Virus record (IMG/VR): IMGVR_UViG_3300009024_000067
Span: 1 to 23,939 of that record
From: a virus
Reading direction: 5' to 3' (one strand)
DNA: 23,939 nt
Shown here: positions 20,356 through 23,300 of the stretch, one piece after another
Layout of the letters: each line of letters opens with the position of its first letter
How positions within the stretch are numbered: the first letter of the stretch is position 1
Notes under the pieces: model-generated
Database searches by the model: none
The model's input: only the letters and a program-made list of their open reading frames with translations
Told to the model about the DNA's origin: nothing
Made by a program: the position numbers and the translations under genes

Positions 20356-23300
20356 ATGAATAAAGATAACAGAATATCGAACCTACCACAAACAAAGCGT
20401 CTTTTATCTGACCAAGTTGCAGACCCATTTCCGCACAAGGCTGAAATAGCTCCTCCAAACAATCAAGATGATGAGGCCTTATTTCTTTTAGCTAGATCTG
20501 GATCGCATAACGAAAAAGTTAAGTTTAAAAATTTAAAAAAATCAGTGCTAGATGGGTCAAACGCAGTTTTTCTTACCGGAAAACAGTTAATTAGCGGAGA
20601 AAAAACTTTCGCAGATGTTTGTACATTTGAAAGTACAGTATACATAAATGAAATTATAGACATAACACAGACTGGAGACATAAGTGGAAATATCTTCGTG
20701 GGAGAGACAGGTTTGTTTGAAAAAATAGGAATAGGTTTAGATTTTACAGACAGAAGAGTGATAAAAGAGGTTTTTATAGATTTCCCTAAAGAATCTAATG
20801 GCTATGCCTCTTATACTTACGGAGGGGGAATCGATCCGCATATAATATCCGAGGATATTCACAAAACTTATGCCCTCGAAGAAGATGGTTTAAGTTATTT
20901 ATTTAGTGGAGATTCAACGGGTCTTGATCCAAATATTGAGATTCAAGTTGGAGATTCTCTGTCTATAACAAATTTAACAAAACCCCACTCCTTAGTTATA
21001 AAGGATTTAAATAATAATTTATTATCTTCAGAAATTTCCGGCATAACTAATTATTATGCATCCTCAACAGGTAATTATTATTATCAGTGTCGATTGCCAG
21101 GACATGAAGGTATGAGCGGCAGTATAAATATTAAAGATGTAGACATTTATAGCTATTCCTTAATGTCTGGAGCTGGAAACAATTACTTGTTTAGCGGAGA
21201 CGCCTCTGGGATCAATCCAAATTTACTAGGGACATCAGGTGATATTTTTAATTTCGCCAATTTGACTAATGGCAACCCTTTGGTTATTAAAGATGAAAAT
21301 GGAAATGTTCAAGCGCAAGAAGCTAGCGGAAAAACCTCCTTTAAAGCAAATAGCGCAGGGTCTTTTTATTATCAATCAATTGAGTCTGGAAGCCAAAGCA
21401 TGAGCGGATCGATTTTAGTCTCAAGCCCATTAACTAAAAATTACTCTTTGTTTGACTCTAGTGGAGAAAGTTATTTATTTAGCGGAGATGCTCAGGGCTT
21501 AGATCCCTTGATTGAATCAAGAGAGGGGGATTTGCTGATATTCGAAAACCTAACCAAACTTACATCCCTAACAATTAAAGATGAAAATCACCAGGTAGTT
21601 GCTGCTGAAACATCTGGAGTGGTTAATTTTAAAGGTGTTAGTTCGGGGCTTTTTTACTACCAGTCAACCGCAGCAGGACACCAAAGCCTTAGCGGAGCAG
21701 TTAAAGTGTCTTCAAGAAAAGACCCTGTGGTCTTAGATTTTTCAGATCAAGATCAGATAAAAACAACCACATCACTAAAGTCCTATCCAATATACGAACC
21801 TTCGGGTTTTTATAATTCTAACACACCAGAATCTCAACAAAGTTGGGGCCAAGATCTTTCTCTTGACGGGCACCAATTAAACCCAGATGATATACATAGA
21901 GAGATGGGTGGAGCTTGGTATCAAATAGATTTTGATCAAGCATTTCATTACAAAGGTTTTTCTTTATTTAGGAAGGGTTTAGAAAACAGCGCAGAGGATC
22001 TAAAGGTTGTAGCTTCTAATAACGGCTTAGACTGGAATACGATTCATAGAGTTTCTGGTTTGTCCCCAAAAAACTATGAGGACAAAAATTCTCCAACCTC
22101 CTTTGCCCTTGAAAAATACCACCCCGAAACTTATTTAAAATACAGGCTTGTTGGTGAAAAAATGATTTCGGGCAATTTATGGGAGATAAGTCATTTTAAT
22201 TTTTCTGGACTAGCCACTTTCGAACATACTCGCACTGTAGATCCTTTATATACACTGCACGTTTCCGGGGACTCTTGTTTCCTGGGAGATATAACTCATA
22301 CTGGGAATCACAGGCAAGAGGGAAATTCTTACAGAATAGGTGAATCTAGCTTATTGGGGGATTTCAAAATAACAGGAAACTCCTGGAGGTATGGAGATTT
22401 ATACATGAAGGGAGATTACTATCTTACCGGAGACTTCACTCATACAGGAAACTCTTTTTTACATGGAGACAAGACTTTAATTGGAGACCTAACTCACACA
22501 GGATACTATAGACAGTTTGGAGAACTTTACAGGATCGGCGATTCTAACCTTTTGGGAGATTTTAGAATCACTGGAGATTCCTGGAGGTACGGGGACATGC
22601 GAATGAAAGGCGATTATCACCTCACTGGAGATTTCACTCAAACAGGAGACTCTATGATTTATGGGGATGAGAAGGTCACAGGAGATGTTTATGTTGGAGA
22701 GTATTTATACCACTACGAAGACCAAGATACATTTCTTCGATTTAGGGATGATGAAATTACGCTACAAGCAGGAAATGAATGTAAAATATTATTGAGCGAA
22801 ACGGAAGATGATTTTATTTCTTTTGGCACTTCAGGAATTGAGCAGGCTAGACTTACCAATGAAGGTTTTCTTGGTGTAAATACCGCAAGTCCTGTAGGAG
22901 AGCTTTCTGTTACAGGTTCGGCTTATTTAGAAAGAGCGTTCACGACTGGAGAGGATGGTCAATGGGAGAGAGTGTTCGGAGGTTCCGATGAAGTAGTTTC
23001 CTTCGTGGCTCCCTTGCATGAAGGAAAAGATAGTTTTCATTTAGATTTTCCAAAAACTTTTGGAGAGAAGCCTGCAGTCACACTATCTCTAGAGAATTCT
23101 GCTGGAGGCCCAATTATTCCATATATGATTTCAGGATTAAACGAATTTAGCTTTGCGGTTAATTTCGGTACTGAGCTTAAAGACGACGAATATAAACTGC
23201 ATATAAATGCACGACCCACAGGTCAATCTTCGGCGAATAAAACAACAACCCAGTCATTCACTACAGATATTCCTAAAGATGTTGATACTTATGAAGTTTT

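Follow-up and report, generated by a model that had tools for sequence, protein, structure and literature searches.

Tandem cupredoxin-like domains in a phage tail fibre, the first with a predicted type 1 copper site

The fibre gene and its neighbors

The window, by which we mean the whole stretch of DNA that was analyzed, is a 23.9-kb virus fragment from IMG/VR. An open reading frame on its plus strand (20356..23466) encodes a fibre protein of 1036 aa with an array of cupredoxin-like domains, and directly upstream on the same strand (18363..20324) is the gene for a paralogous fibre of 653 aa, which has the same two ends and is without the cupredoxins and the F5/8-type domain. Searches for close relatives of the larger fibre identified one ortholog only, a full-length protein (71% identity over the best segment) encoded on a stretch, L004, of a 140-kb virus contig, in which the two fibre genes are also side by side. 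The pair is followed by a third fibre-like gene, at 11136-13493 in L004 and from 23493 in the window, where it is cut by the window end. Single-sequence searches of viral contigs with the first cupredoxin copy had no match.

The original prediction assigned the array to a phage tail fibre, an assignment that is borne out by gene content. The minus strand of the window has genes for a tape-measure protein (PF10145, E 7e-29) and for a minor tail protein (PF05939, E 4e-25), the array carrier has fibre-type repeats, a shaft matching phrog_5070 and a fibre paralog, and the L004 contig has lambda J-like and L-like tail genes (as well as a DNA ligase, rIIA and rIIB). For the tape measure, the minor tail gene and rIIA, the matches were to phages of many hosts, all at less than 35% identity.

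All features of the larger fibre described here are on the plus strand. Its N-terminal part (residues 1–133; 20356..20754), with 51% identity to the upstream paralog and 86% to the L004 ortholog, is likely the end that attaches to the virion. The array is followed by a region (residues 453–620; 21712..22215) with a weak match to the F5/8-type C (discoidin, galactose-binding-like) domain PF00754, whose scores in the window fibre (E 1.9e-4, 22.0 bits) and in the ortholog (E 3.4e-5, 24.4 bits) are both below the 28.2-bit cut-off. Next is a repetitive beta-rich shaft (residues 624–780; 22225..22695) of SGDS.LGD.THTG-type repeats (phrog_5070, E 1.8e-6), which by sequence matches resembles many phage tail-region proteins. 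The C-terminal part (residues 860–1036; 22933..23463) is common to the paralog and is possibly an H-lectin-like tip, based on sub-threshold H_lectin matches in the paralog (E 0.23) and in L004 (E 0.043). A match of the C-terminus to the Pfam family Tox-SGS (E 0.021, below the cut-off) was judged to be due to chance.

The paralog shares residues 1–133 and 624–1031 of the larger fibre at 51–53% identity and has nothing between them. Since the whole of residues 134–623, that is, the three cupredoxin-like repeats and the F5/8-like region, is missing from the paralog, we consider this segment to be an accessory insert.

Three cupredoxin copies and the predicted fold of the first

The array consists of copy 1 (approximately residues 171–259; ~20866..21132), copy 2 (~266–356; ~21151..21423) and copy 3 (~362–452; ~21439..21711), each of about 90 aa and with pairwise identities of 46–52% (BLASTP E 1e-23 to 4e-30). 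A profile of domains from other phages, built without the window sequence and without its ortholog, found all three copies (E 4e-13, 2e-7, and 5e-5, respectively), while 500 shuffles of the fibre protein gave nothing near such E-values, so the array is far beyond chance. The three tandem repeats that had been proposed, with copy 1 at residues 171–258 (20866-21129), copy 2 at 266–356 (21151-21423) and copy 3 at 362–452 (21439-21711), proved exact to the residue in their limits, coordinates and ligand residues. The Pfam family DUF4097 also matched the array below its cut-off (E 0.0012); because both profile and structure indicate cupredoxin, we took this to be a chance beta-repeat match. A model of the array together with the F5/8 region, made from two sequences, had a pLDDT of 54.6, and its only usable result was a threefold strand pattern.

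The translation confirmed that copy 1 has the full ligand set H211, C245, H250, and M253. The H211 codon, the first His ligand position, is at 20986..20988; this residue is kept in L004 and is part of a His-Cys-His-Met (HCHM) quartet in 73 of 79 distinct domains. The other three residues are in the loop C245-x4-H250-x2-M253 (CRLPGHEGM; 21088..21114). At the corresponding positions copy 2 is ligand-free (N307/S341/S346/M349) and copy 3 ligand-poor (T403/S437/H442/L445). The expectation that both had lost the Cys and the first His is correct for the window; it does not extend to L004, in which copy 2 retains both His residues. The loss that copies 2 and 3 share across the two phages is that of the Cys, which is replaced by Ser, and neither copy has the Cys plus two His that a type 1 copper site requires. 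Tree building placed the six copies from both orthologs in one clade (97/95), in which the copies 2 paired with each other (91/85), as did the copies 3 (100/98), and the triplication therefore predates the split of the two phages. Ligand loss in copies 2 and 3 appears to be derived, because related domains elsewhere are nearly all HCHM.

Copy 1 is predicted to have the cupredoxin fold, an eight-stranded Greek-key beta sandwich, as originally proposed. When copy 1 by itself was searched against PDB sequences, the top match was rusticyanin (E 0.016). With the profile of A6, an alignment of 45 related phage domains of which 41 are full-site rows, matches to nitrite reductase (NirK), plastocyanin, pseudoazurin, amicyanin and rusticyanin extended across the whole domain (best E 4.9e-10). 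The AlphaFold2 model of copy 1 made with this alignment was confident (pLDDT 95.3, pTM 0.86) and has nine strands, and all of its listed PDB structural matches are cupredoxins. The closest was the N-terminal cupredoxin of the three-domain Hyphomicrobium NirK (VIA-align Z 13.1, 1.8 A, 92/96 residues), and rusticyanin had Z values of 9.6–10.7. Among viral models (BFVD), the best matches were to cyanophage tail fibres, baseplate wedge tail fibre connectors and S8 peptidase-type proteins (query TM 0.8–0.86), including the P-SSM2 proximal tail fibre and the S-RIM14 baseplate wedge tail fibre connector. By PF00127 (Copper-bind), copy 1 scored 16.7 bits, below the gathering cut-off of 21.2; the cut-off was passed by related phage proteins on L023 (24.5 bits) and L049 (23.7). 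Two of the 45 A6 phage domains matched PF25489 (At5g54830-like domain, a plant family; E 3e-5), which may be a cupredoxin relative.

The placement of the four residues is that of a type 1 copper site, judged by the strands of the model and by alignment register. H211, C245, H250, and M253 are positions 45, 79, 84, and 87 of the model (numbering from residue 167), whose relevant strands are 47–50, 73–79, and 88–94; thus H211 immediately precedes a strand, C245 is the final residue of the penultimate strand, and H250 and M253 are in the loop to the last strand. Type 1 copper proteins have the same placement of His, Cys and His-Met relative to their strands. In sequence alignments the four residues fall on the copper ligands of rusticyanin and are in register with those of NirK, so that the predicted site has its two His, its Cys and its axial Met at canonical positions. 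Among type 1 copper domains, then, copy 1 shares its fold and quartet with the NirK N-terminal cupredoxin (2dv6, 6tfo) and rusticyanin, including the C-x4-H spacing with a PGH motif. It differs from them in having H-x2-M where their alignments have H-x4-M, which makes its ligand loop two residues shorter, and, unlike plastocyanin/azurin family members, it is embedded in a phage fibre.

These closest folds are electron-transfer domains, and in known cupredoxins type 1 copper sites mostly transfer electrons. A redox role, in which the site would sense redox state or transfer electrons at the cell surface (possible partners during entry being cytochromes of the host periplasm or surface), would fit such relatives; we nevertheless regard it as quite improbable, as there is no redox partner or enzyme domain in the fibre protein or the window, the virion is without its own electron supply, and the site is a single isolated one in a long fibre, distant from other cofactors.

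The ligand quartet in related phage proteins

In copy 1 of the ortholog, H, C, H, and M are all kept at 61% domain identity. Copy 2 (57% identical) is N/S/S/M in the window vs. H/S/H/I in the ortholog, and copy 3 (52% identical) is T/S/H/L vs. A/S/H/L. As four of four ligands would be kept by chance at 61% identity with a probability of ~0.14, which is weak evidence alone, conservation was tested more widely. An alignment of nine diverse domains was invariant only at the four ligand positions, a Tyr and a Gly, although several of the nine had been found by patterns containing Cys, His and Met and the set is biased in that respect. Because of this bias, we counted the domains unmatched by any search pattern: 18 of 24 were HCHM, and the remaining six comprised copies 2 and 3 of both orthologs, one DSRM and one HCHQ. 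The quartet is also kept in other proteins at 43% identity. The conservation in the 41 full-site rows of A6 is by construction, since these were chosen as HCHM, and we do not count it as evidence.

A further scan used only the DNA encoding GTYYYQ, a motif without any ligand, and its matches were assessed with a profile of the domain segment preceding the motif. Among the matches listed, at least 45 were cupredoxins (E <1e-3) with Cys next, and 45 of these 45 had C..H..M or C-x4-H-x2-M. Where Ser was next, the matches listed included cupredoxins on L096 (E 3e-5) and L144 (E 2e-11) and a probable one on L104 (E 0.04); in these Ser copies the first His, second His and Met were absent too, that is, all four ligands were gone. 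Among the distinct complete domains in the matches listed, 61 of 64 were HCHM, a set with only two Cys-less domains, so that we give its Fisher test values no weight. In these sequences, then, the quartet is kept or lost as a set. Free variation of homologs at the ligand positions, which would have spoken against the prediction, was not seen: the ortholog has the quartet, as do nearly all related phage domains. Such retention also bears on whether the residues might instead serve as an opportunistic site for Zn, Ag, Hg or Cu(I), or provide a reactive Cys for cross-linking or assembly. A set of one Cys, two His and one Met is able to bind other soft metals; however, the whole quartet is retained, including the weak axial Met and a first His that precedes the Cys by 34 residues, which points to type 1 copper over a lone thiol, and we regard these alternatives as highly improbable.

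Unrelated phage proteins also have arrays in which full copies are found beside ligand-free ones. The L104 protein has an HCHM copy and then two ligand-free copies, and in the L096 protein one copy is ligand-free and another, at the C-terminus, is full; both proteins are unrelated to the window fibre outside the cupredoxin domain. The L096 phage protein (498-3512, minus strand) belongs to the subtilase family, as does that on L009 (1186-3246, plus strand), and in both a copper-site cupredoxin is at the C-terminus; the L096 protein matches PF00082 (E 1.6e-21), and its ligand-free copy is mid-protein. The L144 gene (6695-11602, plus strand) encodes a phage protein of 1636 aa whose cupredoxin-like domains are without all four ligands and have long glycine-rich insertions mid-domain.

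The ligand-free copies fold and have been retained, so the fold does not depend on copper. The fold is thus useful without copper too and in some proteins is simply structural, as these copies show. This could be so throughout, with the cupredoxins being rigid Ig-like beta-sandwich decorations in which copper, where bound, only stabilizes the fold in sea or lake water. Consistent with a purely structural role are the ligand-free copies beside full ones in the window, L004, L096, and L104, the ligand-free copies of L144, in which no full copy was seen, and the annotation of P-HM1 gene 104, from a cyanophage relative, with an Ig V-set domain; Ig-like domains are common on phage tails. Because the fold survives without ligands, such a role leaves unexplained why most family members, at 25–40% overall identity, keep the full quartet and why it is lost as a set. 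We regard a purely structural role as the main rival explanation and consider it rather unlikely. By the same reasoning, as the fold dispenses with copper, retention of the quartet in copy 1 points to a use for the metal.

Full-site domains were found in proteins matching PHROG 677 (baseplate wedge tail fibre connector), 15006 and 9729 (tail fibre), and 9158, and in the named cyanophages P-HM1, S-H9-1, and ACG-2014e. The suggestion that similar segments occur in marine phage structural proteins was also right, as they are present in cyanophage tail, baseplate and subtilase-like proteins, and the independent profile, the BFVD matches and the tail-module context together identify an HCHM cupredoxin module of phage structural proteins. 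The cyanophage domains (PHROG 677, 9158, and 15006) have the same fold and four ligands as copy 1. They differ from it in being mostly C-x2-H-x2-M and usually separate, whereas the window fibre has a head-to-tail triplet, with C-x4-H-x2-M in copy 1, and the carrier proteins are unrelated. Overall, the C-x4-H-x2-M spacing was counted in 14 phage domains and C-x2-H-x2-M in 58. An unrelated protein of 1020 aa on the L018 contig has a full-site domain with 45% identity over 83 residues. The pattern Y.C..PGH..M.G was found at nine loci, of which two (L010 and L017) were rejected as chance out-of-frame peptides.

In several virus contigs, full copper-site cupredoxins occur in more than one structural gene or in a single giant one. 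On L023, different structural genes of one contig (10800-12290 and 5686-8400) each have full copper-site cupredoxins, and on L049 they occur in the product of one giant gene (1912-11742; 3277 aa) together with YHYH domains. P-HM1 gene 104 (L006, 1922-7420, plus strand) is annotated as having an Ig V-set domain (PF07686), yet two full copper-site cupredoxins were found in its product.

Possible role of the copper site

The reading of copy 1 as a type 1 copper site is supported by the sequences and the model, as the searches and the model revealed no other fold, no misplaced residues and no freely varying homologs, and copper binding by copy 1 is strongly inferred. We expect that the phage would have a long, lambda-like tail with the insert in one of its two paralogous tail fibres, and that in the assembled virion copy 1 would most likely hold a single type 1 copper ion via H211, C245, H250, and M253. 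The copper site itself would be under selection. Copies 2 and 3 would have kept the fold and lost the copper, probably serving as spacers that present copy 1 and the adjoining galactose-binding-like domain, presumably at the virion surface; that ligand-free copies persist favors a structural role of copies 2 and 3. The likeliest use of the site, besides sugar binding by the insert, would be a copper-dependent contact with a partner on the host surface, which we might speculate is a TonB-dependent copper receptor or a surface redox protein. Taken together, we give moderate credence to the insert being an accessory adhesin-like module, carried by one of two paralogous fibres, in which a copper-loaded copy 1 and spacer copies 2 and 3 combine copper-dependent host contact with sugar binding. 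A much broader proposal, which would be the copper equivalent of the iron Trojan-horse idea, is that type 1 copper proteins on the virions of phages from many lineages serve host recognition by mimicking secreted cupredoxins and docking on bacterial copper receptors or surface redox proteins, with ligand-free duplicates as spacers; it seems to us unlikely.

There is a precedent for metal in phage tail fibres. T4 gp37 and other phage fibres have HxH iron sites, for which use of a host metal receptor has been proposed (the Ferrojan Horse idea; PMC11705849). The likeness to the window fibre is that of a metal in a tail fibre; the difference is that in the HxH fibres iron is held by His pairs between chains, whereas the putative copper site would be inside one domain. 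A series of HxH motifs was sought along the 1036-aa fibre and none was found, the only instance being one HTH at residues 1031–1033. For the host-contact hypothesis, the model is the secreted cupredoxin azurin, which was reported to bind OprC, a TonB-dependent copper receptor (PMC6907878), a result that was not reproduced by another group with membrane-purified OprC (PMC8610252). Azurin is a soluble bacterial protein, whereas the window cupredoxin is part of a phage fibre.

Our search, mainly of open-access literature, found no relevant paper on cupredoxins or type 1 copper in phage virions. While the fold and the site are old, a copper-competent use of them in virion proteins seems to be undescribed in the literature searched; automatic superfamily annotation in public databases may have flagged some of these phage proteins as cupredoxins already. 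The presence of the same copper-ready domain in surface proteins of many aquatic phages suggests that copper is displayed on virions for a reason. Copper in natural waters is scarce and tightly complexed, and it is toxic in excess. If a copper-competent cupredoxin is indeed conserved in the virion proteins of many aquatic phages, then virions would bind copper by design, with a bearing on host finding, on infection in relation to copper status, and on the copper held by viruses in water. The findings also correct the annotation of such phage domains, which are now called hypothetical or Ig-like, and the full and ligand-free copies in one fibre would be natural built-in controls for the role of the metal.

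Full-site domains are also present in bacteria, namely in large proteins encoded by MAGs of marine Flavobacteriaceae and Marinoscillum. In these and a Flavobacteriales MAG (L077–L081), the same HCHM cupredoxin ends large surface-type proteins or is found in short ORFs, and it is possible that these bacterial proteins are a source or partner of the phage modules. The large surface-type protein on L078 has DUF285 and InlB-like repeats.
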